Both the position numbers and the translations under genes were made by a program. A stretch of DNA of 64,000 nucleotides from Ureibacillus acetophenoni (GTDB lineage: Bacteria; Bacillota; Bacilli; Bacillales_A; Planococcaceae), in the NCBI RefSeq assembly GCF_900220965.1, contig NZ_OBQC01000003.1, forward strand, positions 186,001 through 250,000. Reading direction: 5' to 3'. Below are positions 6,059 through 64,000 of the stretch, in pieces; positions within the stretch are counted from its first letter, which is position 1, and the number at the start of each line of letters is the position of its first letter. Below the pieces are notes generated by a model that had not been told where the DNA came from, did no database searches, and saw only the letters and a program-made list of their open reading frames with translations.

Positions 6059-6081
6059 AATTATCCTCCAATTTATCAAAT

Positions 6082-6266
6082 TCGCCTTGGCTTATTTGCG
6101 CCCAGATTTTATCCAGTTTGCTGGGTAAATTACCTTTTAAAAATCTGTGGCATCCGCCAGAGGCTTTAACTTCATTCAGTCAGAGTTTGAATCCCTATTA
6201 AATGATTTAATATTTTAATTCATAGAACACTTTTAAATGTGGGAGACCTTTGCTGAATGAAGTTAA
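6082..6266 (-). repeat. Structured inverted-repeat element inside the ABC operon
   Basis: This roughly 185-base block between the second permease and the ATPase is rich in self-complementary segments. There is a perfect 14-base inverted repeat (6166-6179 with 6253-6266) around 73 bases, an 8-bp pair (6103-6110 with 6140-6147), a smaller CCAG/CTGG pair (6113-6116 with 6121-6124) and a palindrome at 6124-6134. The block starts one base after the permease stop codon and ends just before the ATPase ribosome site. No reading frame fits it and I see no target-site duplication. It may be a dispersed miniature element or an RNA processing/stabilising structure. No second copy was found in this window. 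Confidence 0.55.
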
Positions 6267-6267
6267 T

Positions 6268-7476: not shown

Positions 7477-7487
7477 ACTCTCACCCC

Positions 7488-8606: not shown

Positions 8607-9023
8607 AGGCGACCTCCAACTTATAAATTGCAATAAAGCATAAATGTTGAATTAAAAGTAACTTTTTGTAGTTCTAAACAATTCTTCCCTATAGATTTTT
8701 AAGCCAATGTCATCGATACAAATATGTCGATGAATTTTTGGTAAAAGTTACATAATTTCAAAATTAGCGATTTGTTATTTTAGAATAATTGTTGACATAT
8801 TTGTAAATTATTTCAACTTTTACAATTATAATATTGTTAATGAATTATTGAAAGATTATTTTCGAATATTTTAGAAAGTTCTGTCTTCAGAGCGGGATAT
8901 TCATTATATTTATATAATATCTATACCCTTTCAGAAAAAACTATTGAGATTTATTAGACGCTATAACCCTCTAATTTCCTCCAAACTATTAAGAAAAAAA
9001 TAAAATTAAAAAATTATAGAGTC
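8607..9023. other. Divergent intergenic region between exporter operon and SigI island
   Basis: About 420 bases of very AT-rich sequence with no gene seen. A 7-bp inverted repeat (TCATCGA at 8710-8716, TCGATGA at 8727-8733) about 100 bases upstream of the exporter operon could be an operator. A TTGACA at 8793-8798 has no -10 box at normal distance. Confidence 0.4.
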
Positions 9024-9053
9024 GACCCCCACAAAAAATTCTTTAATTACGAA
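9024..9053 (+). promoter_or_regulatory. SigI-type promoter
   Basis: GACCCCCAC (9024-9032) followed after 19 bases by CGAA (9050-9053) matches the ACCCCC / CGAA consensus of Bacillus sigma-I promoters. It lies about 55 bases upstream of the secreted repeat-protein gene, and sigI itself is the next gene. C-runs are rare in this AT-rich gap, so chance is an unlikely explanation. The assignment is by consensus only. Confidence 0.75.
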
Positions 9054-9107
9054 TAATATATTGTCCGAGAAAAATAGGATAAAAAATTTACTAGAGGTGT
9101 ATAACTT

Positions 9108-9923
9108 ATGAAATTAAAGAAAACAACTGCAGCAATATTAGTAGCAGGATTAACAGTAGCAGGTTCTAGCCTAGCATTTGCAAACGACACAATATTCAAG
9201 GCTGATGAAGAGAAAGAGGAAATTTCAGCTGAAGTAACTACTGCAGCAGATATCCAACCGGGTGTTATAATGGATCCTTCAGAAGTATTAAAAGATTCAA
9301 CTCAAAAAGATGACTCTACAAATGATGAAACTTTAGAAGTTACAACTAAAGACGATTCGACTAAAGACGATTCGACTGAAGAAGCTACAGAAGATAATAA
9401 AGAAACTGATGTTGTAAAAGAGACTGACAAAGAAGACGAAGATCATAAAAACGAAACATCGAAATCAGAATTCCCTGAAATTCCTGAAGGCTATACAGCT
9501 GGGAACTTAGTTGCTCTTAAACAAGCTTACGAAAATGCAGGAAATGAAAATGCAAAACAAGCAATCTTAAATAATGCCAAAAGAGCAATTGCTAAATTTA
9601 AAGAAAAACACGATTCTAAAGAAGTAGCTGATTTAAAAGTCAAATTAGAACTTGTAGGAATTCAAAAACCTGGTGAAACTATAATCGAACCTGTAAAGCA
9701 AGAAACTGTGATACCATCTCAGGAGACTACTAAAACAGAAAACGAGATTATTAGTAAAGAAGAACAAAAAATCGAGAAAAAAGAGTTAAAAGAACAACAA
9801 AAAGCTGAGAAAAAAGAGCTAAAAGAACAACAAAAAGCCGAGAAAAAAGAACTGAAAGAACAACAAAAAGCCGAGAAGAAAGCTGCAAAAGCTGAGAAAA
9901 ATAACGGAAAAGATAAAGAATAA
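9108..9923 (+). CDS. Secreted acidic/basic low-complexity protein, putative SigI target
   Basis: The 271-residue product has a clear signal peptide (MKLKKTTAAILVAGLTVAG through ALAFA-like cleavage near residue 25). Next comes an Asp/Thr/Lys-rich acidic stretch (about 60-125) with a short internal duplication. A folded-looking helical segment at about 130-185 (GYTAGNLVALKQAY, then NAKQAILNNAKRAIAKF) resembles DUF5667-like helices. The C-terminal tail is highly charged and contains three 11-residue repeats EKKELKEQQKA. It has no anchor motif or membrane helix. The Lys/Glu tail could bind cell-wall polyanions, but that is inference. ATG 9108 has AGAGGTG upstream. A SigI-type promoter precedes it and sigI-rsgI follow. 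Confidence 0.75.
   Translation: MKLKKTTAAILVAGLTVAGSSLAFANDTIFKADEEKEEISAEVTTAADIQPGVIMDPSEVLKDSTQKDDSTNDETLEVTTKDDSTKDDSTEEATEDNKETDVVKETDKEDEDHKNETSKSEFPEIPEGYTAGNLVALKQAYENAGNENAKQAILNNAKRAIAKFKEKHDSKEVADLKVKLELVGIQKPGETIIEPVKQETVIPSQETTKTENEIISKEEQKIEKKELKEQQKAEKKELKEQQKAEKKELKEQQKAEKKAAKAEKNNGKDKE
9774..9872 (+). repeat. Three tandem 33-bp coding repeats
   Basis: Units 9774-9806, 9807-9839 and 9840-9872 each encode EKKELKEQQKA and differ at only a few synonymous bases. Near-identity at DNA level points to recent expansion, so copy number may vary between strains. Confidence 0.9.
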
Positions 9924-10109
9924 TAGTTCTATAAAATAATTACCAAATATCTATCATTCATAAAAACTAACAATTCTATTAGAAAATATTTAAACTTAAC
10001 TACCAAAATATCATTAAATTATTATTTCAATTCAATTAAAACCCTTTTCATTTTTCATAATTCCATATAAAATCAATAGCGTTGGAAACTTGAGTCCGGA
10101 GGGTATGTT

Positions 10110-10853
10110 ATGCTTTTGTCTATTATACAAGGATTATTTAAGCCAAAATTAAATATAACCGAACTTGCGAAAAAGGCAAAAGCTGGAAATGAGGAGGTCA
10201 TGAACGACCTCCTCTCTTTTAGTAAACCGTTTATGAAAAAAACTGCGTCGTATATTTGTAAACGTCCTATCGATGAACACGATGAGGAATACAGTATAAC
10301 GATTCTTGGCTTTCATGAAGCAGTTATGTCCTTTAATCCTGAAGAAAATGCTTCATTCCAAACTTTTGCCCATTTAATCATTAAGAGAAGATTGATAGAT
10401 TATATTCGTAAAGAGACTGCTAGAAAAGATCAATTATTATCCCTTGAACCAAACGAAGATGATTCTTCTGAACAACATTTTTTATTCAATGAAAAATCAA
10501 TTTATACATATGAAGAAAAACAACGATCCGCAACTAGGAAAGAAGAACTCTTAATATATCGTGAGTTATTATCTGGATTCAATTTATCTTTTGAAGATTT
10601 AACAAAAACTTCACCAAAACATGTGGATGCACGAAAAACTGCGTTTCATATTGCACAAATCGTAGCAGATCACGAAGAATTCTATAACTATTTGTTAAAG
10701 AATAAAAGATTACCTTTAAAAGAAATTGAATCATTAGTTGAGGTTTCAAGAAAGACGTTAGAACGTCATCGTAAATATATCATCGCCGTCGTTTTGTTAT
10801 TAAACAGTGACTTTATCTATTTAAAAGATTATGTAAAAGGAGAAATCATATAA
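10110..10853 (+). CDS. sigI: RNA polymerase sigma factor SigI
   Basis: A 247-residue sigma-70-like factor with region 2 near residues 15-110 (FMKKTASYICKRPIDEHDEE, then ASFQTFAHLIIKRRLIDYIRK) and a C-terminal DNA-binding part (PLKEIESLVEVSRKTLERHR). The ETARKDQLLSLEP type linker and the lack of a standard region 3 fit SigI, the heat- and envelope-stress sigma factor of bacilli and clostridia. GGAGGG lies 7 bases before ATG 10110. The stop codon overlaps the ATG of rsgI by one base, so sigma and anti-sigma are translationally coupled. I see no convincing SigI promoter directly in front of sigI, although one lies upstream of the preceding gene. Confidence 0.92.
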   Translation: MLLSIIQGLFKPKLNITELAKKAKAGNEEVMNDLLSFSKPFMKKTASYICKRPIDEHDEEYSITILGFHEAVMSFNPEENASFQTFAHLIIKRRLIDYIRKETARKDQLLSLEPNEDDSSEQHFLFNEKSIYTYEEKQRSATRKEELLIYRELLSGFNLSFEDLTKTSPKHVDARKTAFHIAQIVADHEEFYNYLLKNKRLPLKEIESLVEVSRKTLERHRKYIIAVVLLLNSDFIYLKDYVKGEII

Positions 10854-11749
10854 TGCGTACTTATAAAGGGATTGTTTGTGAAATTAATAAAAACTATATG
10901 ATTTTTATGACGGCTGATGGCGAATTTCTGCGTGGTACACCCCTTGTAACGAACGCACAAATCGGTGATGATGTGGAATTTCAATTATTTGCCACTTCTT
11001 TCCTTTCAAAGAAACGGAAATCTTTTATTATTGCACCAGCTTTAGTTGCAGCTGTAATTATGATTTTCTTAGTCACTGCTTTATTCCCTTCCACAAATAG
11101 TGCTTATGCATTTGTACAAATTGGAAATGAACTTGAATTAGGTATTGATGAAGAAGGCACTGTTATTTCTGTTAAACCTATCAATAATGAACCAACGTAT
11201 GCATTAGATACAAAATTAGAAGGACTTCCTATAGATCTTGCACTAACAAAAGCTATTACTCAGATAGAAAAACATAATGAGACTGTACCGATTACAACTA
11301 AATTTAACGATGATCAACCATCGAAGGCGAAAGAAAAGATTTTAAATACTGTCAATAAAGCAAAAAATAAACAATCGCTTGATGGACCAATCAGGAAGAA
11401 AAATTTAGAGGATAATAAAAATAACAACAAGCAAAATTCAAATACTCATAATTCAAATAACGGGCAAAAACAGAACAATTCAAATTCTTCATCAAACAAA
11501 CAAAACCATCAACTAAAAAATGAAGAACAATTAAAGCAAAATAAATCTTCAAATTACAATAATGAAAATCATAATGGTAATAAAGATAAACAAAACCCTG
11601 AAAAGAATAATAATGGAAAAAATAATATGAACGAAAACAATAGTCAAAACAATAAAAACAGTAATAATCAAAATAATGTGAACCCAAATAATAATCAAAA
11701 CAACGGAAACCCAAATAAAAATAACCAAAACAAAGGGACGTCTGAATAG
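10853..11749 (+). CDS. rsgI: Anti-sigma-I factor RsgI with Asn-rich disordered tail
   Basis: A 298-residue membrane anti-sigma factor. Residues 1-55 form the cytosolic RsgI_N domain that holds SigI. One membrane helix follows at about 60-82 (IIAPALVAAVIMIFLVTALF), then a conserved juxtamembrane domain (AYAFVQIGNELELGIDEEG to about residue 145). The rest is Asn/Lys/Gln/Ser-rich and plainly disordered, as in B. subtilis RsgI, where a disordered extracytoplasmic region is thought to sense the envelope. RsgI proteins normally carry an Asn-Pro pair (DxNPS) in the juxtamembrane domain; here the matching stretch reads QIGNELELG with no Pro. The last codons form one arm of the terminator. The gene overlaps sigI by one base. 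Confidence 0.9.
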   Translation: MRTYKGIVCEINKNYMIFMTADGEFLRGTPLVTNAQIGDDVEFQLFATSFLSKKRKSFIIAPALVAAVIMIFLVTALFPSTNSAYAFVQIGNELELGIDEEGTVISVKPINNEPTYALDTKLEGLPIDLALTKAITQIEKHNETVPITTKFNDDQPSKAKEKILNTVNKAKNKQSLDGPIRKKNLEDNKNNNKQNSNTHNSNNGQKQNNSNSSSNKQNHQLKNEEQLKQNKSSNYNNENHNGNKDKQNPEKNNNGKNNMNENNSQNNKNSNNQNNVNPNNNQNNGNPNKNNQNKGTSE

Positions 11750-11776
11750 TGACGTCCCTTTGTTTTGGTTATTTTT
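11717..11776 (+). terminator. Intrinsic terminator overlapping the rsgI coding end
   Basis: A perfect 26-bp stem (11717-11742 with 11751-11776) with an 8-base loop holding the stop codon, ending in a T-run. The left arm encodes the last residues of RsgI (NKNNQNKGTS), so coding and termination functions share the same bases. Confidence 0.93.
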
Positions 11777-12047
11777 GCTCAATTTTAATTAAAAAGTTAC
11801 ATATTAGTGGACGAATTCGAATTTTTTCTGTTATTAATACTTTTTTAGAATTAATATGCATAAGTATCAATACATCGCCAATTCATACCTTATTATAAAA
11901 TAGCGATTTTACTCTAAATAATTATATTATGTAAACTAATTAGAATACTATTATATATACTTCACTCTATTAATCTCCTAAAAACCAACACTTTTCGCTA
12001 TGGTTTTTTAATAAAAAGTATATAATAGTAATATATGGAGGTACAAA

Positions 12048-13439
12048 ATGCTTAAAATTAAAAATATTGAGTTTATCAAGGCAGTTTATGATGATTCTCT
12101 TTCACATAATATCTTTTCTATCGCAAATATAGAATTCTCAAACTATCCTCCAATTAATGGTGCCCTTTTATATTGGAGAAAAAATTATAATACAAAATCT
12201 GAATATACTCCTGAAGGTGATTATAAGTTCTACTATGATATGGCAAATGGAAATTATTTTGCATCGGTTAAATTTCCAAAAAACGTAAAACTAACTCGAG
12301 ATCAAAAACAAGAACTTGCCTTTATCTTATTAGATGAACGGGGCTCAATTGGATCCTACAGTTTAAAAACTCATAAAAACCGTAAAAATCATTTTAATCC
12401 AAAGAACTCACTGGAAAGTTTAGATTTTCCGGAGGATTTTCAACCAAAACAAATACCTTCATATGTTGGGCCTTTAGTAGAAGAAAAAGAAATTGAAGCA
12501 ATAATTAAAACAAATCCGACTTTAACTAAAGAATTTATTGAAGACTATTGTTACTTCCGTTATCAATTAGCTCGATTACATCCTTCTGAGTTTGAAGCTT
12601 ATTTAGAATATGTGGACTTTTCATATATTTGTTATGCTTGCGACCAATTATCTGAAAAATATTTAATAGAGCATTTAGATCAAGTGGATGTAGCAACATT
12701 GCAATACAACTACCCTGTTCTTTCAAGATTATCTGCCTCTTTCAAAAGATATATGGTAAACGAACTTAAGCGATTGAATGAGACAGTTAATCAGCATTTT
12801 GAACATGAAATTGATTTATTTATAGAAGATGAAACATACTTCAGCGAGTATGGATATATCGATTTAATGGATGAAAATATTGAGATCGAAGAAGAAGAAA
12901 TTGAATATCTGTTTTTTGAATATGATCGTGGACCTAACAAATGGTATGGCAGTGAACATCTAATCAAAGGAATCCCTTCTTTTAGAAGCCAAGTTTACGA
13001 TGATTTAGGCTATAAAAAGCCGACAAATAAGGAAATGGATGTTGCAATCAATTCCTATACACCTTTGCAAATTTCACTTCTTAGTGCAATATTGGAACCC
13101 CATTGGCTCCACAGGTACCGTGAAATAATAGATTGGAAGGCTGCCTGTTTATATAATCAATATTTAACAGATGACTTCTTAATTGCTCATATGAATTATG
13201 TTCAATTTGAAGCACTAGGTCAAAATTTATGGTGTGAAGTATCGGAACAGTTCATTGAAACATATATGAATTGTTTCAATCATAATCAACCAGTTCCTTT
13301 CATCATTAGACATTTAACGGAACAAATTTATTTAAATCATAAAGATACAATACAAGTGGATAGTGATTTACTATATCAATATTATCCTTCTATTGGTGAC
13401 GATGAATATGAAAAAATTCAAAGTCTTTTAGAAGATTAA
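12048..13439 (+). CDS. Uncharacterised protein with degenerate helical repeats
   Basis: A 463-residue soluble, acidic, aromatic-rich protein with no signal peptide or membrane helix; I do not recognise the family. The N-terminal about 130 residues look beta-rich. The remainder carries loosely repeated units of about 20-40 residues of the form LSEKYLIEHLDQVD, LTDDFLIAHMNYVQF, VSEQFIETYMNCF, LTEQIYLNHKDTIQ. Similar 'LSE-F-I-x-H-x-D-x-V' repeats occur in scaffold-like phage and bacterial proteins of unknown role. ATG 12048 has GGAGG 7 bases upstream. It is a single-gene transcript, with the rsgI terminator before it and its own terminator after it. Confidence 0.7.
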   Translation: MLKIKNIEFIKAVYDDSLSHNIFSIANIEFSNYPPINGALLYWRKNYNTKSEYTPEGDYKFYYDMANGNYFASVKFPKNVKLTRDQKQELAFILLDERGSIGSYSLKTHKNRKNHFNPKNSLESLDFPEDFQPKQIPSYVGPLVEEKEIEAIIKTNPTLTKEFIEDYCYFRYQLARLHPSEFEAYLEYVDFSYICYACDQLSEKYLIEHLDQVDVATLQYNYPVLSRLSASFKRYMVNELKRLNETVNQHFEHEIDLFIEDETYFSEYGYIDLMDENIEIEEEEIEYLFFEYDRGPNKWYGSEHLIKGIPSFRSQVYDDLGYKKPTNKEMDVAINSYTPLQISLLSAILEPHWLHRYREIIDWKAACLYNQYLTDDFLIAHMNYVQFEALGQNLWCEVSEQFIETYMNCFNHNQPVPFIIRHLTEQIYLNHKDTIQVDSDLLYQYYPSIGDDEYEKIQSLLED

Positions 13440-13445
13440 TTTAAA

Positions 13446-13490
13446 AGGTTACCTTAAACTTTTGAATAAAGTTAAGGGTAACCTCTTTTT
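13446..13490 (+). terminator. Intrinsic terminator
   Basis: AGGTTACCTTAAAC (13446-13459) pairs with GTTAAGGGTAACCT (13471-13484) and is followed by a T-run. It lies just past the stop of the 463-residue protein gene. Confidence 0.9.
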
Positions 13491-13531
13491 TCATGTATTT
13501 AGCTTCTAATTTAATTTTTTACCAAAACCTA

Positions 13532-13672
13532 TTACCTATCAGCTCGATCGTTATAGGCAGCTAATTGTTCTTCGGATAGGCTTTTTAAATAATGATACAA
13601 ATTAATTGGTTCAATACCAAATTCTTTACATTTTAAAACGTAATAATCATATCCTTCTTGATAATTTGACAT
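13532..13672 (-). CDS. Small soluble protein, 46 residues
   Basis: The product starts MSNYQEGYDYYVLKCKEFG, contains EPINLYHYLKSLSEEQLAAY and ends NDRADR. It is amphipathic, has no membrane helix, and its codons look protein-coding. AGGGG lies about 10 bases before ATG 13672. It sits alone between two terminators. I do not recognise a family; its size and Tyr-rich helical character recall small sporulation or phosphorelay-associated peptides, but nothing here proves that. Confidence 0.6.
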   Translation of the reverse strand: MSNYQEGYDYYVLKCKEFGIEPINLYHYLKSLSEEQLAAYNDRADR

Positions 13673-13770
13673 TGAAATCAACCCCTACTCTGTATTATAA
13701 CAGTTAAAATATTTATAAATTAATATAGTACAGATGAATTGAGTTGTCAATAAAATTTTTCAGAAAATTA

Positions 13771-13809
13771 AAAAAGGATGACTTTCTCTGGCATAAAAGA
13801 ATGTCATCC
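13771..13809 (-). terminator. Intrinsic terminator of yqeY
   Basis: On the minus strand GGGATGAC and GTCATCC flank a 23-base loop and are followed by a U-run, 10 bases past the yqeY stop codon. Confidence 0.85.
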
Positions 13810-13818
13810 CGTTAATTA

Positions 13819-14244
13819 TTAGATTAATGATTTTACAACTTTTGAAATTGTTGCACCATCAGCTTTTCCAGTAAGAAGAGGTTTTGCAATTTTCATTGCA
13901 TCTCCCATATTCATACCTTTTGTAATTCCAGCTTCCGTTAGAATAGGAATGATTTCTTCTTCTGTTAATTGCTTTGGTAAAAAGCTTGTTAAAAGAGCTA
14001 ATTTCGCTTCTTCTTTTTCGATTAAATCTTCACGATTAGCCTGTTTTGCACCATCTAATGATTGATTTGTTTGCTTTATTTCACGATTGACAATGGCGAT
14101 TTCTTCTTCAAAAGTCAGTTCCGCGCCCTTTTCCTTTACCGCGCTATCAAGAGCTGATTTTAATAAAGTTAAGACACCTTTTGCCACTGTATCTTTGTTC
14201 TTCATTGCTTGTTTTAATTGATCAAATACTTGTGTTTTTAACAT
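13819..14244 (-). CDS. yqeY: GatB/YqeY domain-containing protein
   Basis: A 141-residue cytosolic protein matching YqeY over its full length. The N-terminal helical part (KTQVFDQLKQAMKNKDTVAKG) and the C-terminal GADGATISKVVK-like end (KADGATISKVVKSLI) are typical. YqeY resembles the tail domain of GatB, the amidotransferase that turns Glu-tRNA(Gln) into Gln-tRNA(Gln), and is thought to bind tRNA; its precise role is not settled. ATG 14244 has GAGGAG upstream. In B. subtilis yqeY follows rpsU; here rpsU is not next to it. Confidence 0.9.
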   Translation of the reverse strand: MLKTQVFDQLKQAMKNKDTVAKGVLTLLKSALDSAVKEKGAELTFEEEIAIVNREIKQTNQSLDGAKQANREDLIEKEEAKLALLTSFLPKQLTEEEIIPILTEAGITKGMNMGDAMKIAKPLLTGKADGATISKVVKSLI

Positions 14245-14342
14245 ATTTACTATACTCTCCTCATTGTACTTATTTTACTTTATTGTTTCCAACAGACTGT
14301 GCTAATTTACATCTGGCTTGTCAAATCATTCAAAGCCTAAAA

Positions 14343-15203
14343 TTAAATCCCTAAAAATTGTTTAAATTCTTCCATTCTTTCGATAGCTTGTTTATATCCA
14401 AGTTCATAATTTTTACGCATCACATTCACGTCTTTTTCTAAACTTTGGAGTGCATGCAGAGGTCTAAATATGAATACCTTACCTTGTTCTTCTAATTTCT
14501 CAATATAACGAAGGGTTTCATTGTAACGTATTACTCTTCTTTTCATCGTTTCAACTAGCTTTGGATATCTTTTACTTAGTAGTTTCATCGTAAATTTACT
14601 TTGACGATCTGTATGTTTACGATACCCTAAAGGTCTAGTTAAAATAAGAACATGTTTTTCATATCCATCATTTATTGCTTTTTGAATAGGTATTGGATCT
14701 GCTAGCCCTCCATCAAAATATGGTTCTTCTCCTAACTTTATTTCAGGAAACATAATTGGAATAGCACAAGTTGCACGTAATAGAGTACAACTTGTATCCA
14801 TTTCCAAAGCATTCTTATATTCAACTTGACCAGTTTTTGCATTAGTTACTCCAAATTTTACAGTTCCCTTATAGGCGCGGAAAGTTTCCCAGTCAAATAA
14901 ATCTAATTGATTTGGAACAACATCATAAGCAAAATTTAAACCAAACAAACTTTTTTCTTTAAGGAAATTTCTAAAACCCATATAACGTTTATCGTGACGG
15001 TATTCCGATAAAACTCTAAAAGTTCTTTCTTTTTGTTCCGAGACATACGAACAAGCATTAATCGCACCTGCTGAAATACCGACTATATACGGCATCAACA
15101 TTTCATGATCTAAAAATGCATCTAAAATACCTGAAGTAAAAACTGTGCGAAACGATCCGCCTTCTAAGATTAGGCTCGTGTCTTTCACGTTTAATAGTTC
15201 CAT
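14343..15203 (-). CDS. Patatin-like phospholipase
   Basis: A 286-residue serine hydrolase of the patatin family (YjjU-like). It carries the glycine-rich oxyanion segment LEGGSFRTVF (about residues 13-22), the nucleophile elbow GISAG (Ser about 44) and the catalytic-dyad Asp in FDGGLADPIP. No signal peptide is present, so it should act in the cytosol or at the inner face of the membrane on acyl esters. ATG 15203 with GGGGAAG upstream is preferred over GTG 15215, which overlaps the ribosome site. A small membrane-protein gene lies 50 bases upstream on the same strand and is likely co-transcribed. Confidence 0.87.
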   Translation of the reverse strand: MELLNVKDTSLILEGGSFRTVFTSGILDAFLDHEMLMPYIVGISAGAINACSYVSEQKERTFRVLSEYRHDKRYMGFRNFLKEKSLFGLNFAYDVVPNQLDLFDWETFRAYKGTVKFGVTNAKTGQVEYKNALEMDTSCTLLRATCAIPIMFPEIKLGEEPYFDGGLADPIPIQKAINDGYEKHVLILTRPLGYRKHTDRQSKFTMKLLSKRYPKLVETMKRRVIRYNETLRYIEKLEEQGKVFIFRPLHALQSLEKDVNVMRKNYELGYKQAIERMEEFKQFLGI

Positions 15204-15252
15204 TAGCTTCCCCACTTAATTTTATATTTATATTAATAATTTTACTATAATT

Positions 15253-15408
15253 TTACCATTCAATGGGAAGTAAAGCCTTGATGGAATCAAAATTTATATA
15301 GATGAAATAAACTAATAAAACAATTAATGCAAGTGAAAGCAGTTTCTTTGTTAGTTTCCATAATATTATTATCCCTATGACTAGTAGAATAATGACTAGA
15401 TAATCCAC
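15253..15408 (-). CDS. Small membrane protein, 51 residues, GTG start
   Basis: A perfect AGGAGG lies 7 bases before GTG 15408. The product begins MDYLVIILLVIGIIILWKL, has a second hydrophobic run (LLSLALIVLLVYFIYI) and ends with a soluble tail KALLPIEW. A strong ribosome site, a complete reading frame and the two-helix pattern support a real gene although it is short. It is first in a probable two-gene unit with the patatin-like hydrolase. Function unknown. Confidence 0.72.
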   Translation of the reverse strand: MDYLVIILLVIGIIILWKLTKKLLSLALIVLLVYFIYINFDSIKALLPIEW

Positions 15409-15558
15409 GAAATTCCTCCTAACCACTATTAAAATATTCCCTTATACTACAATTGTCCATTATGCGTACCCCAATAGCATACTAGATTACCATTTAAAGT
15501 ATAACAATTTATGATAGAATATAAGAAAAATGTTGTTCAATATAAGGAGTGTGCAAAT

Positions 15559-16725
15559 TTGAATATTATTCCTTCAAAGAAAATGTCATTATATAAACCT
15601 GCGATTTTTTCTTCACTTAAAAGTTTTGCAAAGAAACAGCAACAAGAAAAAGGGATGGAACTGATTGATTTAAGTTTAGGTAGTCCGGATATCCCTCCCC
15701 ATGAAATGTTACGTGAACATATGGCAAAGTTAAGCTTACTTCCTACATCTTATGGATATACACTGGCAGCTTCCACACAATTTAAAGAATCTGTTGCTAG
15801 TTATTATGAAAGGGTAAATGGTGTTGAATTAAACCCATCTACAGAAGTAATACAAACGATAGGCTCACAAGAAGGGTTAGTTCATCTACCTGTAGCTTTC
15901 TGTGATCCTGGTGATATTGTTTTAACAACTAACCCTTCATATGTTGCTTATGATGCCGGTATTAAACTAGCTGGGGCAACAAGCTATTATATACCTCTTG
16001 ATGAAAAAAGAGGATTTGTGCCAAATCTCCAAGCAATACCAGAAGAAATTGCACAAAAAGCGAAGCTATTAATTATCAATATGCCAGGTAATCCTGTCCC
16101 TACAACTCCTTCTATTGAATACTTTACGGAAGTAGTAGAATTCGCTAAAAAATATAACATTATTGTATTACATGATGCTGCTTATTCAGAATTTTACTTT
16201 ACAGGTGATCGACCTATTTCGTTTTTAGCTACTCCTGGTGCAAAGGAAGTTGGCTTAGAAATTAACTCACTTTCTAAAAGTTTTAGTTTAGCCGGTGCTC
16301 GTGTCGCTTACATAGTTGGAAATGCTGAAATGATTAAAATTATTAGTCAATTAAAATCAAATTTAGACTTTGGTATTTTTGACCCAATCCAATCTACTGC
16401 TGCTCTTGCATTAGATAATGCAGAAGAGATAACAAAAAGTTTACGTGAAATTTTTTCTGAACGCCATAAAGTTTTGACAAAAGGTGTGCAAGAACTTGGT
16501 TGGGAAGTTGCTCCATCTAACGGAGGGATGTTTGTTTGGGCGAAATATCCATATGGTCTAGATAGTGTCTCATTTACTTTTAAAGTAATTGAAGAAGTTG
16601 GTGTTATAATGGTCCCTGGTACAGAGTTCGGTACTGAAGGTGAAGGTTATGTTCGTCTTGCATTAGTACAACCTGTAGAACAATTAGAAAAAGCAATTGA
16701 GAAACTAAAAACTTTCACTCTATAA
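15559..16725 (+). CDS. PLP-dependent class I/II aminotransferase
   Basis: A 388-residue fold-type I aminotransferase. The lysine that binds pyridoxal phosphate is in SLSKSFSLAGAR (about residue 235); the Asn of MPGNPVPT, the DAAYSEF aspartate and the C-terminal Arg of GYVRLALV are the other expected PLP/substrate contacts. It resembles the LL-diaminopimelate aminotransferase/PatA branch, but the amino donor cannot be fixed from sequence. TTG 15559 was chosen because AAGGAG (15544-15549) lies 9 bases before it; ATG 15511 lies upstream of that site. It forms a single-gene transcript ending at the terminator at 16730. Confidence 0.87.
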   Translation: MNIIPSKKMSLYKPAIFSSLKSFAKKQQQEKGMELIDLSLGSPDIPPHEMLREHMAKLSLLPTSYGYTLAASTQFKESVASYYERVNGVELNPSTEVIQTIGSQEGLVHLPVAFCDPGDIVLTTNPSYVAYDAGIKLAGATSYYIPLDEKRGFVPNLQAIPEEIAQKAKLLIINMPGNPVPTTPSIEYFTEVVEFAKKYNIIVLHDAAYSEFYFTGDRPISFLATPGAKEVGLEINSLSKSFSLAGARVAYIVGNAEMIKIISQLKSNLDFGIFDPIQSTAALALDNAEEITKSLREIFSERHKVLTKGVQELGWEVAPSNGGMFVWAKYPYGLDSVSFTFKVIEEVGVIMVPGTEFGTEGEGYVRLALVQPVEQLEKAIEKLKTFTL

Positions 16726-56792: not shown

Positions 56793-58157
56793 TTAGTATA
56801 CAGTTATTGGTGTGAAGAACTCTTCGTATAAAGCAGTTAACACTTGATTTTCTACTTCAGATAAAACACCGAACACTAAACTTACTTCTGAAGAACCTTG
56901 GTTAATCATTTCAATATTTGAGCCTGTTTTTGAAATAGCTGAGGCAGCACGGGCAGCAAGGCCAGTATTATTTCTCATACCTTCTCCAACAATTACAATC
57001 ATTGAGAACCCATGACGGAAATATACATCATCCGCATGAAGTTCTTCTTTAACTCTTTTTACGATTCTTTCTTCTGCTTCAGGTGTAATTTGATTTGAAC
57101 GGATGATTACAGAAATATCATCAACACCAGATGGCGTATGATCATAAGAAATATGTTCATCTTCAATAATATGAAGTAATTTACGTCCAAAACCAATTTC
57201 ACGATTCATTAAATATTTTGAAACATATAAAGTTGAAAAACCACTATCAGCAGAAATCCCAGTAACAGGACGACTAGAAGATGTTGTTCTAGCAGGTAAT
57301 ATTCTTGTTCCTGGTGCTGATGGATTATTCGTATTTTTCACAGTTACTGGAATACCTAATTTAAATACTGGCATAAGTGCCTCATCGTGAAATACAGAAA
57401 AACCTGAGTATGAAAGTTCACGCATTTCGCGATAAGTAATTTCTTCTATTCCTACTGGATCTTTTACAACTTTTGGATTTGCGGAAAATACACAGTCCAC
57501 ATCTGTAAAGTTCTCATATAAATCTGCTTTAACTGCTGCAGCTAAGATAGAACCTGTAATATCTGAACCACCACGGTCAAAAGTACGTAATGTTCCTTCT
57601 TCTGTATAGCCGAAGAAACCAGGGAAAACAACAATTTCATCGTAATTTTTTAAATTATTTAGCTTTTCAAATGCTTCAGGTAACGCGACTGTACGTTCTG
57701 GTGGATTATTTACAATTAAACCCTCTTTTGGACTTACATATTTGGCAGAAAGTCCAATTGAGTTAAAGTAAGCAGCAATTAATTTTGCATTATTGTCTTC
57801 ACCACTTGCCTTTAAGCTATCAACAAACAAATCAATAGATGATCTATCTGATTCAACTCGTTCACGTAAATCTTGCGCAATGATATTTGAAATAGATTGA
57901 TCTAAACCTAGATCATCTGCTATTGTCTTATATCGCTCGACAACATTTTGAAGCTTTCCTTCAACATCTCCATTTTTAATAACGGCATTTGCTAAATCGA
58001 TTAACATATCAGTTACTTTAATGTCATCGCTATAACGCTTGCCCGGAGCAGATACTACAATTAATCTTCTTTCAGGATTAGACTTCACAATGTTTGCGAC
58101 TTTTTTGATTTGCTCAGCACTCGCAACTGAAGTACCACCAAATTTACATACTATCAT
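56793..58157 (-). CDS. yclM: Aspartate kinase (YclM/ThrD type)
   Basis: A 454-residue aspartokinase, first step of the lysine/threonine/methionine pathway. KFGGTSVA at the N-terminus binds ATP/Asp; FDRGGSDITGS and TDVDCVFSANP are in the catalytic core; two ACT domains follow (about 300-454, with VGEGMRNNTGLAARA). Length equals the B. subtilis third isozyme (YclM). No lysine riboswitch precedes it, unlike the transporter at 26739-29131. GGATCTGGTG lies before ATG 58157. Confidence 0.93.
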   Translation of the reverse strand: MIVCKFGGTSVASAEQIKKVANIVKSNPERRLIVVSAPGKRYSDDIKVTDMLIDLANAVIKNGDVEGKLQNVVERYKTIADDLGLDQSISNIIAQDLRERVESDRSSIDLFVDSLKASGEDNNAKLIAAYFNSIGLSAKYVSPKEGLIVNNPPERTVALPEAFEKLNNLKNYDEIVVFPGFFGYTEEGTLRTFDRGGSDITGSILAAAVKADLYENFTDVDCVFSANPKVVKDPVGIEEITYREMRELSYSGFSVFHDEALMPVFKLGIPVTVKNTNNPSAPGTRILPARTTSSSRPVTGISADSGFSTLYVSKYLMNREIGFGRKLLHIIEDEHISYDHTPSGVDDISVIIRSNQITPEAEERIVKRVKEELHADDVYFRHGFSMIVIVGEGMRNNTGLAARAASAISKTGSNIEMINQGSSEVSLVFGVLSEVENQVLTALYEEFFTPITVY

Positions 58158-58501: not shown

Positions 58502-59323
58502 TTATTTTAAATTTAATACTTGTATATAACAAATTGTGTTTATATCGATTTCTTGTTTCTTCTTTTTATTTTGAATTTGAATTTTGCCATCTCTAGTTTC
58601 TATTAATGTCCCGAAATGACGCTCTTTGTCAGTTCTTATTTTTACTTCTTTACCTTCGTACTTCTTTAACGCTTTGTGTAATGGAATTCCAAAAAACAGA
58701 TTTTCAATATCTGCATTTTTTGAAACAAATTCACCAAAATTGAACGCCAATTCTCGTCTTGTATCCTGATCAGCGTTAATAAATTTAGGCTCACGTTCTT
58801 CTTCTACACTGTCTATTCTTGAAATAGATAGAAGATTATTATATAGAATAAATAATGCACTACCTATTGGATTTATTTGAATAAAATCTCGACCAGCATT
58901 TGCCAATTTACCAATTTTTCGAATTAATTTGACAGTTTCTGCTTCACCTTCATTATTTCCATTTATCGAATTATTCACTAGTATTTCATTAACATCTTCA
59001 TCATCTTCTTGAATATCTAATCCACATAATATATTGGCCTTCACTTTGATCCCTTTTATATCAAGAAAATGTAGTTGTAGTTGTCTAGTATTATTCGCAT
59101 CCACTTCAGAACCTAATGACCTCAATAAGTCATTGATCGTTTCGATACAAATTTGTAAATCATCTAGCTCTTCTTGAGAAAGCGGGCTATTTAGAGAAGA
59201 AAAACGACGTGTTCTAATTTGTTTTTTACAATCAAATGGTGAACCGAATAAGTTAACGGGGTTTTGAGGAACTAATTGATTACATTTACAAGGATAGTGT
59301 TCGCATAAATTACAGTTATTCAT
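58502..59323 (-). CDS. Unknown protein coupled to MnxG: Cys-cluster N-terminus, Sm-like C-terminus
   Basis: A 273-residue protein I cannot name. The N-terminus has a C-x2-C-x4-C-x-C cluster (CNLCEHYPCKC, residues 3-13), a candidate metal site. A helical middle follows (LDDLQICIETINDLLRSLG; AETVKLIRKIGKLANAGRDF). The last about 55 residues (KKYEGKEVKIRTDKERHFG, then TLIETRDGKIQIQ) look like a five-strand Sm-like barrel, as the MnxE/F-like proteins do. ATG 59323 has AAGGTG 7 bases upstream and overlaps the mnxG stop by 8 bases, so expression is tied to the oxidase. No signal peptide. A spore-layer or maturation partner of the oxidase is my inference. Confidence 0.7.
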   Translation of the reverse strand: MNNCNLCEHYPCKCNQLVPQNPVNLFGSPFDCKKQIRTRRFSSLNSPLSQEELDDLQICIETINDLLRSLGSEVDANNTRQLQLHFLDIKGIKVKANILCGLDIQEDDEDVNEILVNNSINGNNEGEAETVKLIRKIGKLANAGRDFIQINPIGSALFILYNNLLSISRIDSVEEEREPKFINADQDTRRELAFNFGEFVSKNADIENLFFGIPLHKALKKYEGKEVKIRTDKERHFGTLIETRDGKIQIQNKKKKQEIDINTICYIQVLNLK

Positions 59324-62300
59324 AAAGAACACCTTCATCTTTTTTCTTTTTTGTAGTTTCCAACAATAACAAACCTGATACATATTCTTCAAGTTCATCT
59401 ACATCTACAGTTTTTGATGGCTCATCGTTTTGCAAAGTTACTTTACTAAACGAGTTATTTAAAGGTGCTAATAATTTTGATTTTCTTTTTAAAACTCTTA
59501 GAATTCCCCACATTCCTAATTCAATATCCCATCTAATATTACCTGAACGATATAAATAGTCACCTGGTTTATCTAATAGTCCTCCGGCACCATATAAGAT
59601 ATGAAAATCATCAGATGACCCTACTGTCCTTTGTGGCGCTGCGGAAATAATAGAGGAATTAAAATCATCTTCGCTTCTAAAGAACTTGTGCCCATGAATA
59701 ACAAAGGTACGTGTTCTCGGTTTATCTGCAGGTTGTGTTAATCGGATTGTAATTGGATCACCAGGATAAGCAAGTAAAAGAGGTGTACTAGGATCACCAA
59801 AGGCTTTAGAACTAAATACTTTATGGATGTCTTTAAATTTCTTTACCCGGTTTCTAAATGGTTCATAGCGATAGTTAAAAGCTTTTGATCCTGCATCTTC
59901 AAAGTCTGGTTCTTCTTCCTCTTCAACTTCAACATTTCCAAATACCAGTGGTTCTGGGTCAAGGATTAGATTGCCGTTTTTATCAAGCAATCGTATACCA
60001 TCATGCATGATAAGGGCAAATTCTCTAGTCTCAGGTAGTAGAGGATTTTTTATAATTACTTGTTCACCTGTACTTACTTCTTTTCTCGTTTTTGAGTCGA
60101 GGAATTTTGACCCTCTTGGTTCGGCTATAAGCATTCCAAATGCACCATGATGTCTATGGTTTCGAAGATCTGCCATATCCACTAAATTAGCTGTACCAAT
60201 ATCTTGATCTATATACCAGCTATAAGTGATTGTTTCTCCAGGACCAATTGTTTGATCTTTATTGAAACCTACTGTCGCTCCATCTGAATTTCGAACATCG
60301 TAAACAACTAAATGAGCATGTAGGGAAATTCGATCCGAGGTTGGGAAGAATGCTTCTACAGGCACTTGTGGATATCCATGAATACCATCATGATGATCTT
60401 TCCCATTTAATAAGTTTGTAAGTCTAATTTCTACATATTCACCAACGTTCGCTCGAATAATTAACGGCTTTGGATTTTTCTTTCCACATAGAATATCATC
60501 CACATCTTCTTTTAACGCATAGACAATACCAAATGGGTCATGGTCACCATTCTTATGATATTCAATACATGCATTTAACGCATATACATCGTATTTTCGA
60601 ACGACTTTATCATCAGGATATGAATAATGATCTATTTTTACTTGTGGTGGTATCTTTCCAGTTGGTTTTGGTAATGGCTCTTTTCTCATTGGCGGTTTTT
60701 TTCTATCCTTTAAAGGCATTAGGTGATGAACCCGTTTCTCGTAAGTACGGAAAATCCCCCAATTCCCTAACCAAATATCATCGATTGAACCAAAATGGTA
60801 AAGCATATCGAAGTCTCCTTCACCTTCTACGTTAAATTCAAACGTAAAGGTTTCAGCGATAGCGATATGTTGTTGCTGATCGAGTTCCGAATCCAAATCT
60901 GGTCGCTCCCGATGCCATCGTTGACGGTGTAAGTTAAAACTATGAGATTCTTCATGTGCACCTTGGATTAATCGAACACGAACAGGGTCACCGTTATAGG
61001 TTTCTAGAAGTGGCGTAACTGGATCTCCATGTACCCATGAGCTGAATACATATGCTGGGTCACAATCAGGTTCTTTCAAACGAAACTGTAATGGTTCACA
61101 TCGATAATTGACACCCATTACTCCTGGATCATCAGGAGAACTTGGAAATGGTGGTGGATTTAGTGGATTTCCTTCTTTATCAAACAATAAAGCGAAGTCA
61201 TGTACAAATAAGTTAATTTCTCGGAAATCTGGAATTAATGGATTTTCAATTCTTGCTTGAGTTCCTGATAGAATCTCTTTTTCTTCATATGGACTTAAAT
61301 ACTTAGAGCCCCTTGGTTCAATATTAATCGCAGCAAACACACCATGCTGTTGATGCTCATTAGCAAATAAATGGTCGTGCCAAAATGTTGATTTTAACTC
61401 TACATCCGCATACCAGGCGTATTCTATTGTTTCATTTGGTGTAATTCCTGAATCATAATTCCAACCAACATTAGCACCATCCGAACATAAAACGTCAAAT
61501 TTTACGAAGTGTACATGCATACCCGCCTCATATGTTCGATTGACTAATTGGAAGGCGTTTCCACCTATTGTTTCAGGCAATTTATTCGTATATTTAAACT
61601 TAACTAAATCCCCTGCATTTGCTCTAATTACAAATGGTTCTGGATTTTTCTTACCTGCAAGTATATCTTCGTAATCTTCTGCTAAAACATAAAAACGCCC
61701 TTCAGGATCATGCCATCCTTGCTTGTTATACACAATAGGCGCTTGCATAATGATGACATGATATTCTCGAACAGGTGCATCTGGAGGCGCTGGGTTTACA
61801 AATGCTGCACCTGGAATGGGTCGTTCAGCAAAGTGATTTTTTTCAATTTTTGTTGGTTCTCTACCGTTTACGATTCCAAGTGGTGGACGGGGTGCTTTAA
61901 ATCCAGGAATTCCCGGAACAAAGTTAGGATATCCAGGTCTTTCTGGCGTAGGCTTTGGTGGTAATGGTCGATCAGGAAGCGGTTGGAGTGGCTTAATTTG
62001 AACTCCATTTGGATAACACATACTTCCATCCTGTAAAGTATCAAAATTACGTTGAATCCCCCACATTCCTTCTCCAAAATGCGGATAAAGGTGACAGTGA
62101 ATAATTGCATCTCCAATGGCACCATGTAAGCTTCCAGCACCATACATTGGAGAAACTGTATACTGCGCTTGAGGTGAAATTGCTTGAACATCCAAAATTT
62201 CAGAATCCATATCATTATGTTCAAATAGCCATTGGTGAACATGATAGTGGAATGAATGGGTTTCTTGAACTCCAGCATGAACAAGTCGAATTTTGATTGG

Positions 62301-63095
62301 ATCACCAACATAACATTTTAATATCGGCGTATCTGGGTCACCAAATACCCAAGAGTCATGGTGCACTTCCTCACCTTCACAATCTGGACAAACGACTCCT
62401 TCTTGTATTAATCTCAATCGATTTCTCATCGGCTCTGCACGGTAGTTAATTAGGTGAGTTGCTTCAGGTTGGAGTGTATGCGGACTAATCGGTGATTGCC
62501 CTGTTAAATCATCAACTTCCTGTTCATCATGGAAGAACCAACCAAATTCGCGAAACGATGGCAACAGTGGATTATGAACATCCGCAAAATTACCGCTGTT
62601 AATCGGTTTACCTGTTTCAGGATGTGTCCACCAAGAACCTCTTGGCTCAACGAATAATGCACCAAATAATCCATGAACATTACTACCTTGTTCACTAGAT
62701 AACGCATTTCCTAAATCTGAAAAGAAATTAACCCCTTCATCAAATACTTTCCATTTATATAATATTTTCTCGCCTTTTTTCACTGTCGTATTACGGTTTA
62801 AACCAACAAATGCCCCATCAGCAGTCATGACATCATATTCGGCATCTTGAATGTGAATCCCCGTATTGAATGGAAGTTGGTTTTCGAACAATACTTCAAC
62901 TTCGTCACCGACACACGCTCTAATCACTAATGGTTCTACTAAATCTACTGGTGTAAAAGGGTTCTTTTCAACTTGTTTTTTCACTAAACTTTCGTTTTCT
63001 TTTAGTACATACATCATTCCATCAGGGTCGTGATCACCAAATCTGTTTACAACGATTCTTATGGGTATTGCAACTATATGATATCTTCTAATCAT
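59316..63095 (-). CDS. mnxG: Giant multicopper oxidase, MnxG-like (Mn(II) oxidase)
   Basis: A 1259-residue protein built of three homologous repeats of about 400 residues, each two cupredoxin domains; every repeat carries EPRGS and GDP-TP-L motifs. A full copper set is visible: HYHVH (283-287), IIHCHLYPHFGEGMWG (Cys 334, His 339, Met 344: type 1 site), MHVHF (527-529) and FWHDHLF (573-575) for the trinuclear centre. The third repeat has only remnants (HAHLVVYD, HGHKFF). This ceruloplasmin-like size and layout is that of MnxG, which with MnxE/F oxidises Mn(II) to MnO2 on Bacillus spores. No signal peptide, as in MnxG. ATG 63095 overlaps the mnxF stop by 8 bases. Confidence 0.88.
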   Translation of the reverse strand: MIRRYHIVAIPIRIVVNRFGDHDPDGMMYVLKENESLVKKQVEKNPFTPVDLVEPLVIRACVGDEVEVLFENQLPFNTGIHIQDAEYDVMTADGAFVGLNRNTTVKKGEKILYKWKVFDEGVNFFSDLGNALSSEQGSNVHGLFGALFVEPRGSWWTHPETGKPINSGNFADVHNPLLPSFREFGWFFHDEQEVDDLTGQSPISPHTLQPEATHLINYRAEPMRNRLRLIQEGVVCPDCEGEEVHHDSWVFGDPDTPILKCYVGDPIKIRLVHAGVQETHSFHYHVHQWLFEHNDMDSEILDVQAISPQAQYTVSPMYGAGSLHGAIGDAIIHCHLYPHFGEGMWGIQRNFDTLQDGSMCYPNGVQIKPLQPLPDRPLPPKPTPERPGYPNFVPGIPGFKAPRPPLGIVNGREPTKIEKNHFAERPIPGAAFVNPAPPDAPVREYHVIIMQAPIVYNKQGWHDPEGRFYVLAEDYEDILAGKKNPEPFVIRANAGDLVKFKYTNKLPETIGGNAFQLVNRTYEAGMHVHFVKFDVLCSDGANVGWNYDSGITPNETIEYAWYADVELKSTFWHDHLFANEHQQHGVFAAINIEPRGSKYLSPYEEKEILSGTQARIENPLIPDFREINLFVHDFALLFDKEGNPLNPPPFPSSPDDPGVMGVNYRCEPLQFRLKEPDCDPAYVFSSWVHGDPVTPLLETYNGDPVRVRLIQGAHEESHSFNLHRQRWHRERPDLDSELDQQQHIAIAETFTFEFNVEGEGDFDMLYHFGSIDDIWLGNWGIFRTYEKRVHHLMPLKDRKKPPMRKEPLPKPTGKIPPQVKIDHYSYPDDKVVRKYDVYALNACIEYHKNGDHDPFGIVYALKEDVDDILCGKKNPKPLIIRANVGEYVEIRLTNLLNGKDHHDGIHGYPQVPVEAFFPTSDRISLHAHLVVYDVRNSDGATVGFNKDQTIGPGETITYSWYIDQDIGTANLVDMADLRNHRHHGAFGMLIAEPRGSKFLDSKTRKEVSTGEQVIIKNPLLPETREFALIMHDGIRLLDKNGNLILDPEPLVFGNVEVEEEEEPDFEDAGSKAFNYRYEPFRNRVKKFKDIHKVFSSKAFGDPSTPLLLAYPGDPITIRLTQPADKPRTRTFVIHGHKFFRSEDDFNSSIISAAPQRTVGSSDDFHILYGAGGLLDKPGDYLYRSGNIRWDIELGMWGILRVLKRKSKLLAPLNNSFSKVTLQNDEPSKTVDVDELEEYVSGLLLLETTKKKKDEGVLYE

Positions 63096-63429
63096 GTTCA
63101 TCATTCCTATGCCGTATATCTGGTATTTCTGGTTTACCAGGTTGTTCAATATAGAATACTTCAATTTCATCAATATGGATTCGGAAGATTTCATCATCAA
63201 GTTCATTTACATTCGTTACATCAGCTTTTATGATTAAAAAATCACCATTCACAGCTTTAATCGTTCCAATAATTAAAAATGGAAATGGGGCGATGAGAAT
63301 TAATGCTTTTTTTCCCACATTTACTCGGAACTCTTCAGTAACTACAAATTCACGAACTGTATTAATATCAGGTCTTCCAACTCCGTTAATATTAAAATCA
63401 AAGTTATCAAATTGAAATTGATCTCTCAC
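63088..63429 (-). CDS. mnxF: MnxF-like small subunit
   Basis: A 113-residue beta-rich protein: VREFVVTEEFRVNVGKKALI, LIAPFPFLIIGTIKAVNGDF, RIHIDEIEVFYIEQPGK. The central part fits an Sm-like barrel. In the known Mn oxidase complex, two small proteins (MnxE and MnxF, about 100 residues each) copurify with MnxG, and their genes lie directly upstream, as here. GTG 63429 is preferred over ATG 63438 because AAAGG lies directly against the ATG but 8 bases before the GTG. The stop overlaps mnxG by 8 bases. Confidence 0.78.
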   Translation of the reverse strand: MRDQFQFDNFDFNINGVGRPDINTVREFVVTEEFRVNVGKKALILIAPFPFLIIGTIKAVNGDFLIIKADVTNVNELDDEIFRIHIDEIEVFYIEQPGKPEIPDIRHRNDEHD

Positions 63430-63462
63430 TTTTTTCATCCTTTCTAAAGATGTTTAAAAACC

Positions 63463-63750
63463 CTATATTAGAGGTATTTTTCTGTTCGGATCAAAAGGTG
63501 TAAAAATAGCTATTTTTTCAATTGGAAAACTTAATGGCGTTGGAAATTTATAAAACGGCGCATTATGCATTTTAATAATCACTGGAAATAAAGTAATAAA
63601 ACCATTGGTAACTTCAGTTACTCGACCACTAAAAATCGGTCGAAATGTTTGCCCTAAAATACTTAATTGCTTACTTTCAGTTACAAGTAAAATATCTTTA
63701 TTCAATACATCAAGGAATACTGCGTTTTCCTCAAGGATTGGACTTTCCAT
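63463..63750 (-). CDS. mnxE: MnxE-like small subunit
   Basis: A 95-residue protein: MESPILEENAVFLDVLNKDI, LLVTESKQLSILGQTFRPIF, SGRVTEVTNGFITLFPVIIK, ending FPIEKIAIFTPFDPN. Strand pattern and the SGxVxxVxxGFI stretch fit an Sm-like barrel. It is the first gene of the operon; GGAGGTGATT lies before ATG 63750. In published complexes the E and F proteins bind copper and assemble with MnxG. I looked for a SigK promoter, expected for mnx genes, upstream; AATATAGTA near 63790 is only a partial match. Confidence 0.78.
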   Translation of the reverse strand: MESPILEENAVFLDVLNKDILLVTESKQLSILGQTFRPIFSGRVTEVTNGFITLFPVIIKMHNAPFYKFPTPLSFPIEKIAIFTPFDPNRKIPLI

Positions 63751-63870
63751 CCTAAATCACCTCCGATATTTCATTCGGTTACTATATTGTATAAACATTT
63801 ACTACTATTGGTTAAACGAACGCACAATTTCCAGTCAATTTCCAATCACAATCTTAAATTTTTACAATTG

Positions 63871-63898: not shown

Positions 63899-64000
63899 TT
63901 AATTCGACTTATTTAACATCTTTGAAATAACTCGTTGCCAGAAAGAGCTAAACCTTGACTGTTTAATGTAATTAATTTTTGTAAGTAGAATTTCTTTACC
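63899..64000 (-). CDS. Unidentified protein, C-terminal fragment at window edge
   Basis: Thirty-three codons open from the edge to TAA 63901-63899: GKEILLTKINYIKQSRFSSF, then WQRVISKMLNKSN. Basic and helical; too short to assign. The terminator directly after the stop supports a real gene end. It does not look like the end of MnxD. Confidence 0.55.
   Translation of the reverse strand, partial: GKEILLTKINYIKQSRFSSFWQRVISKMLNKSN

Follow-up and report, generated by a model that had tools for sequence, protein, structure and literature searches.

The mnxEFG genes of Ureibacillus acetophenoni, encoded on the minus strand near the end of a 64,000-nucleotide stretch of contig NZ_OBQC01000003.1 (positions 186,001 to 250,000, hereafter the window), are well supported by sequence comparison as a Mn(II) oxidase operon of the Mnx type. 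An original prediction, made from the letters of the window alone, had proposed such an operon, and this interpretation is right but incomplete: mnxD lies past the edge of the window, and the identity of the gene downstream of mnxG, the absence of mnxB and mnxC, and the presence of a copCD gene nearby had all gone unseen. With these included, we place a probability of roughly 85% on a reading in which the locus would encode a Mnx-type Mn(II) oxidase with the dedicated partners MnxD and MnxH (the latter a name coined here) and a CopCD copper supply, expressed late in the mother cell. The enzyme itself is already known, and the operon arrangement appears to be new; the listings of searches in an open-access library gave no description of MnxH or of a CopCD-type mnx operon, which does not establish priority.

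All three core genes are intact, with the order and sizes claimed for them, and the top Protein Data Bank (PDB) match of each product in phmmer searches is the Mnx complex 9BXA. MnxG aligns to chain A over residues 1 to 1208 of 1259 (E = 0, 1664 bits), MnxE matches chain B (MnxE) at E = 1.7e-26, and MnxF matches chain E (MnxF) at E = 4.3e-18, which rules out chance homology. We also checked the case that the prediction had named against itself, in which the best full-length matches are laccase-type oxidases without MnxE- or MnxF-type neighbors. The best full-length match is MnxG, the second PDB match is a small laccase at E = 0.00015, and mnxE and mnxF adjoin the gene, so a laccase- or CotA-type oxidase is unsupported. 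The NCBIfam equivalog named MnxG (NF041487, 1894 profile positions), which we take to describe the Pseudomonas-type protein, has in common with the window MnxG a multicopper oxidase and the Mn-oxidase name, but it was rejected as a family for the window protein, whose score of 298 bits falls far short of the 3100-bit cut-off. The description of MnxE and MnxF as Sm-like was not confirmed, as neither matched an Sm-protein profile and the sole significant PDB match of either profile is 9BXA. The six cupredoxin domains predicted for MnxG, considered through full-length alignment to MnxG, were not confirmed either. MnxF otherwise gave weak matches only (e.g., RimP at E = 0.017), the MnxD profile reached 1YCY at E = 0.009, and the MnxD of Bacillus sp. 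SG-1 matches DUF6897. Comparing profiles gave a probability of 38.8% for MnxE versus MnxF and of 3.3% for MnxD versus MnxF, where no relation was seen. The 3.98-Mb genome contains a single mnxG. Among named relatives, Ureibacillus manganicus has the nearest MnxG, with 84 to 85% identity, and its strain DSM 26584 carries the same block (L024).

The type 1 and trinuclear copper motifs of MnxG (HxH, HxH, HxxHxH, and HCHxxxHxxxxM) are all present, as had been predicted. The residues that we take to be the copper ligands, going by multicopper-oxidase motifs, are invariant in 77 of 77 aligned rows, an alignment that includes repeat copies of some species, with many rows representing one species from two collections. 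Four loci with mnxG in pieces shorter than 1,000 residues (L011, L031, L038, and L050) were left out of this alignment and of the MnxG tree discussed below. In the structure 9BXA, the place of the type 1 His is taken by Ala, presumably an engineered site, since all 77 rows have His.

These comparisons bear on the possibility that the protein is a spore multicopper oxidase with another physiological substrate, such as Fe(II), Cu(I), or phenolic compounds, for which Mn oxidation is incidental or has been lost. Such a change would fit with an MnxG that shares only 59% identity with its SG-1 counterpart and with a window MnxE without the cysteine pair, as the MnxE of Bacillus sp. PL-12 has a disulfide (PMC5622069). 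However, the pair is also gone from 23 of the 43 MnxE rows in the clade of SG-1, the copper motifs are fully conserved, the dedicated MnxE and MnxF partners are retained, and full-length MnxG identity among members of the window's clade in the order is 73 to 85%. We therefore consider another substrate improbable. Of 76 rows, 25 have both MnxE cysteines, 3 have just one, and 48 have neither, and the two are nearly always gained or lost together.

The gene directly downstream of mnxG, mnxH, encodes a paralog of MnxD. The two profiles match with 99.9% probability over 210 columns (hhalign; E = 1.8e-32), so mnxDEFGH begins and ends with paralogous genes. We used an order-wide search of 261 genomes, those listed all belonging to one family, and called mnxG positive the 44 genomes with an MnxG match at E ≤ 1e-30, one of which (G191) is partial. 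MnxH was found at E < 1e-50 in 42 of the 44 mnxG-positive genomes and in none of the 217 mnxG-negative ones (Fisher's exact test, 1.4e-46, a figure that ignores shared descent). The best MnxH match among mnxG-negative genomes, at 1.3e-31 in G173, is a broken mnxD, and all others are at 1.2e-4 or weaker; MnxD itself is found in 43 of the 44 mnxG-positive genomes (all except G191) in addition to this remnant. An unrelated coat-protein gene that overlaps mnxG by 8 bases by chance would be in keeping with the lack of any significant MnxH match in Pfam, NCBIfam, or PDB, but the match to the MnxD profile and the near-perfect co-occurrence with mnxG make it very improbable that mnxH is such a gene.

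Two further loci show these genes in other surroundings. In G173, the locus L099 (positions 5807 to 7475) holds a decayed operon of the SG-1 type, with an SCO fragment, an mnxD split by a stop, and a His/Cys-rich gene; no mnxE, mnxF, mnxG, or mnxH match was found in the 15 kb read there. In Halalkalibacter alkaliphilus (L016, positions 7423 to 15728), an mnxH homolog lies between two tandem mnxG copies.

The window's operon departs from the mnxA-G operon of SG-1 (L030), whose genes we name by what we take to be their published order. Both have mnxD, mnxE, mnxF, mnxG, a downstream mnxH homolog, and a gene for a His/Cys-rich protein. Whereas SG-1 has mnxA, mnxB, and an SCO1-like mnxC (Pfam SCO1-SenC, 3.1e-28) in front on the same strand, the window's genome has mnxD upstream of mnxE, followed by a divergent mnxA and by copCD, a CopC-CopD fusion, and no mnxB or SCO1-like mnxC homolog was found in the 14 kb read at this locus. 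The absence of the SG-1-style mnxA-C set marks a variant; mnxE, mnxF, and mnxG suffice for activity, being the minimum for it in PL-12 (PMC5622069).

This difference follows a split in MnxG. A tree of 48 rows, built by a quick method with support values from the Shimodaira-Hasegawa-like approximate likelihood ratio test only, divides into 16 rows that include the window and 32 that include SG-1, with support of 100 each. Within the stretches available, copCD occurs in 10 of the 16 window-clade rows and in 0 of the 32 SG-1-clade rows, SCO occurs in 18 of the 32 and 0 of the 16, and the remaining 20 rows have neither. For the order-wide count, we defined the window clade by at least 73% identity to the window MnxG, giving 19 genomes and a rest of 25. 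Here copCD lies within 6 kb in 16 of the 19 (G061 being placed by hand, as its mnxG stands at the start of one contig and copCD, together with mnxD, on another) and in 0 of the 25, and a strong SCO1-like mnxC match lies within 6 kb in 0 of the 19 and in 24 of the 25 SG-1-type genomes, the SCO counts covering strong matches only (E up to 3.3e-44). A single change on the tree accounts for the split, so the counts do not represent independent events. A tie between the loss of MnxC and the loss of the MnxE cysteine pair was rejected, because SG-1-clade loci with SCO, such as L019, L021, L025, and L039, are without the pair, and 5 of 33 window-clade rows have it.

Mature CopC begins with His, and a His directly follows the hydrophobic leader in 10 of the 11 mnx-linked copCD frames compared and in a plasmid copy described below; the eleventh frame (L098) is a 42-residue remnant. 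At the upstream end of the window's copCD (locus stretch L081, 4353 to 4242, minus strand), there is no ATG, GTG, or TTG between the upstream stop and the leader, and six of nine frames compared are without such a start (L081, L024, L002, L005, L092, and L093). Counting from a GAAAGG stretch, the fourth codon of those six is ATT, ATA, or ATC and that of L003 is ATG, which makes a conserved non-AUG start codon a candidate.

The spacer between mnxD and mnxE contains a putative sporulation promoter. The consensus of the sigmaK-type -10 element is CATANNNTA, and that of sigmaE is CATACAAT. Most window-clade spacers have a TTGTGCTTTTGTTTA-like block with CCATANAATA about 19 bases further on, the exceptions including L035, L067, and L068, whose shorter spacers are without the two blocks. 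Exact CATANNNTA is found in 9 of 18 distinct spacers, compared with a mean of 1.3 and a maximum of 5 in 300 single-base shuffles. With one mismatch allowed, the site is found in 18 of 18 spacers and in 13.3 among shuffles, so this count says little. The two-block pattern, itself drawn from the spacer alignment, has 19-base spacing in 9 of the 18, 20-base spacing in one, and lies elsewhere in one. A plasmid copy of the operon in Priestia megaterium has an exact CATAAAATA in its mnxD-mnxE spacer. The -10-like site upstream of mnxE may belong to a sigmaK/sigmaE-type promoter. The sigma factor genes of the genome score just under the cut-off of the sigmaK model (292 versus 298.65 bits), which none of the control genomes, Bacillus subtilis among them, passed.

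The original prediction had also drawn attention to overlaps of exactly 8 bases at both ends of mnxG. At mnxF/mnxG (63088 to 63095) the overlap is indeed 8, and at mnxG/mnxH (59316 to 59323) it is 8 only if mnxH starts at the ATG at 59323, the in-frame starts giving 8, 17, or 23. Among 34 window-clade rows, many of them duplicates within a species, the mnxF/mnxG overlap is 8 in 24, 14 in 2, 4 in 3, absent in 3, and unmeasured in 2; the two rows given as 14 are the window, where the longest mnxG open reading frame (1,296 residues) starts upstream of the ATG at 63095, and L052, and both have an inner ATG at 8. As 8 recurs in 24 of 34 rows, this geometry is mostly inherited. An overlap of exactly 8 between mnxG and mnxH is not general, being 4 in many window-clade rows, and the overlaps are ordinary translational-coupling geometry.

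Several observations weigh against the reading of an oxidase with dedicated partners, its own copper transporter, and late expression. MnxH is absent from two of the 44 mnxG-positive genomes (G060 and G151), and by contig it was found in 41 of 50 loci; of the nine without it, some are cut by contig ends, and three are from Jeotgalibacillus, with an SCO gene in the place of mnxH. copCD was not found in 3 of the 19 window-clade genomes (G237, G238, and G151, the last keeping a 42-residue remnant), and the copCD match of G047 carries three stops, so copCD is not strictly required. The restriction of the SCO counts to strong matches belongs here as well, and strong mnxC-like SCO matches also occur in six mnxG-negative genomes (G002, G005, G006, G077, G173, and G207). 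For the promoter, the two-block pattern is missing from 7 of the 18 distinct spacers, the window's -10-like site is one base off CATANNNTA, and no shared exact sporulation-type site was found upstream of mnxA in 12 SG-1-type loci, for which reason a sporulation-type promoter ahead of mnxA in those operons was rejected. Lastly, copD or copCD stands beside lysC, the chromosomal neighbor of the operon, in four mnxG-negative genomes of the window's genus (G236, G240, G247, and G254).

This last point concerns the chromosomal site itself. Of 25 genomes of the window's genus, 14 are mnxG positive, and all 14 have lysC no more than about 510 bases from mnxH. On the far side of the mnx block, topB is close in 13 of the 14, as a partial match in G248 and G249, and in G234 the distance is about 18 kb. 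The mnxG-negative genomes G239, G241, and G242 have a lysC-topB gap of 640 to 710 bases in which no mnx or cop gene was found. In G250, G252, and G253, also mnxG negative, only a more distant topB-like gene stands beside lysC, and such a gene also accompanies the lysC-side copD or copCD of G247 and G254. No lysC was found in G244 at E ≤ 1e-100.

Because copD or copCD occupies the same site in four mnxG-negative genomes, part of the linkage between copCD and mnx may reflect shared location. At its strongest, this view would make copCD a resident gene of the lysC-topB site that sits beside mnx by chance, with no role in loading the oxidase, and it would also account for those members of the window clade that are without copCD. 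Yet the CopC part is matched in only one of the four mnxG-negative copies (G240) and is unmatched in the other three, compared with its presence in 10 of the 11 frames linked to mnx. Moreover, the copCD of Peribacillus glennii and of Bacillus sp. V5-8f is beside mnx within a D-A-copCD block that is inverted after mnxH, and no lysC or topB match was found in the available flanks. Finally, the whole block including copCD is carried on a P. megaterium plasmid. On balance, a merely resident copCD seems unlikely, and copCD probably belongs to the mnx module, though as a dispensable member.

The plasmid in question (NZ_CP085418.1; L103, 140 kb) carries the same eight genes in the same order and on the same relative strands, with identities of 74.5% for MnxG, 60% for MnxD, 41% for MnxH, and 41% for CopCD, and so the eight-gene block can move as a unit. 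The copy differs from the window's in its plasmid location, with no lysC or topB named among 17 listed neighbors, and in an MnxE that keeps two cysteines. Its mnxA, mnxD, mnxE, mnxF, and mnxH are annotated as hypothetical proteins. Three further P. megaterium plasmids have an MnxG match of 74%. Haloarchaeal and actinobacterial plasmids, including one of Halalkalicoccus jeotgali (L104), encode multicopper oxidases of MnxG length with about 36% identity to the window's; no small genes are listed directly upstream of the L104 oxidase, in a gene table that may be incomplete.

The features of the locus are collected in Table 1. Beyond the His/Cys-rich gene of L081 lies topB, and in both clades many loci have genes related to that His/Cys-rich gene close to mnx; its product may be a coat-like metal binder.

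Table 1. Features of the mnx locus of U. acetophenoni (window positions unless L081 or MnxG residue numbers are given)
Feature	Position	Strand	Remarks
lysC-like aspartate kinase	56793..58157	minus	Pfam AA_kinase/ACT; chromosomal neighbor marking the site, outside the operon
mnxH	58502..59323	minus	273 residues; MnxD paralog; 8-base mnxG overlap if start is ATG 59323
mnxG	59316..63095	minus	1,259-residue multicopper oxidase; ATG at 63095; 9BXA chain A match; Pfam Cu-oxidase_3 and _2
MnxG ligand residues (presumed)	H280/H283/H285, H333/C334/H335/H339/M344, H527/H529, H573/H575		Window numbering (alignment numbering is +2)
mnxF	63088..63438	minus	116 residues; 9BXA chain E match
mnxE	63463..63750	minus	95 residues; 9BXA chain B match
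-10-like site TATACAATA	63785..63793	minus	Putative; one mismatch from sigmaK-type -10 CATANNNTA; also near sigmaE CATACAAT
Conserved block TTGTGCGTTCGTTTA	63813..63827	minus	19 bases before the -10-like site; from mnxD-mnxE spacer alignment
mnxD, 3' end	63899..64000	minus	Cut by window edge; whole gene L081 1899-2597, contig 249899-250597
mnxA homolog, divergent	L081 2664-3080	plus	
copCD (CopC-CopD fusion)	L081 3082-4242, leader upstream	minus	Pfam CopC 7.7e-13, CopD 1.1e-08
His/Cys-rich protein gene	L081 4427-5509	minus	14% His, 10% Cys; conserved C-terminal stretch

The window's system resembles the PL-12 Mnx complex and 9BXA in the full-length homology of MnxE, MnxF, and MnxG, the ligand motifs, and the contiguity of mnxEFG, and it differs in the MnxE cysteines and in an MnxG that is 32 residues longer than the 1,227-residue chain of 9BXA. 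In the PL-12 complex, one MnxG is held by a hexamer that is mostly E3F3; the complex binds about 10 to 15 Cu and oxidizes Mn(II) as well as Mn(III) (PMC5622069). The expression construct of that study is mnxDEFG, and its main text contains the term mnxD but neither mnxH nor mnxC (PMC5622069). The window's proteins are consistent with this picture. MnxG would draw electrons first from Mn(II) and later from Mn(III) at its type 1 copper and relay them to the trinuclear cluster, where O2 accepts them, with MnxE and MnxF making up the accessory hexamer. MnxD and MnxH, encoded at either end of the transcribed block, would be dedicated partners whose most likely role is structural or anchoring, keeping the complex in place within the spore coat or exosporium, and CopC-CopD, in place of the SCO1-like MnxC, would most likely supply the 10 to 15 copper ions of the complex. 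Expression of the operon would probably begin in the mother cell at a late stage of sporulation. In PL-12 and similar strains, the mnx operon is active and Mn is oxidized in spores (PMC5622069); spores are therefore the likely site here too, and Mn(II) oxidation by spores of U. acetophenoni is plausible.

Much of the Mn(II) oxidation at Earth's surface is considered to be driven by bacteria (PMC5622069), and Mnx is a well-studied enzyme for this reaction. Tentatively, and with some doubt on our part, the locus may represent a second type of mnx module, a transferable unit of eight genes (a His/Cys-rich coat-like gene, copCD, a divergent mnxA, and mnxDEFGH) whose own copper transporter replaces the SCO1-like MnxC and in which MnxH, a partner of the oxidase so far overlooked, pairs with MnxD to cap or anchor MnxEFG in the spore surface. 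The co-occurrence of MnxH with mnxG makes it a candidate for a missing subunit, and the exchange of CopCD for SCO1 offers a testable route of copper supply. Both the MnxH and the CopCD readings can be put to the test, since the clade includes several named and deposited strains and there is also a plasmid copy.

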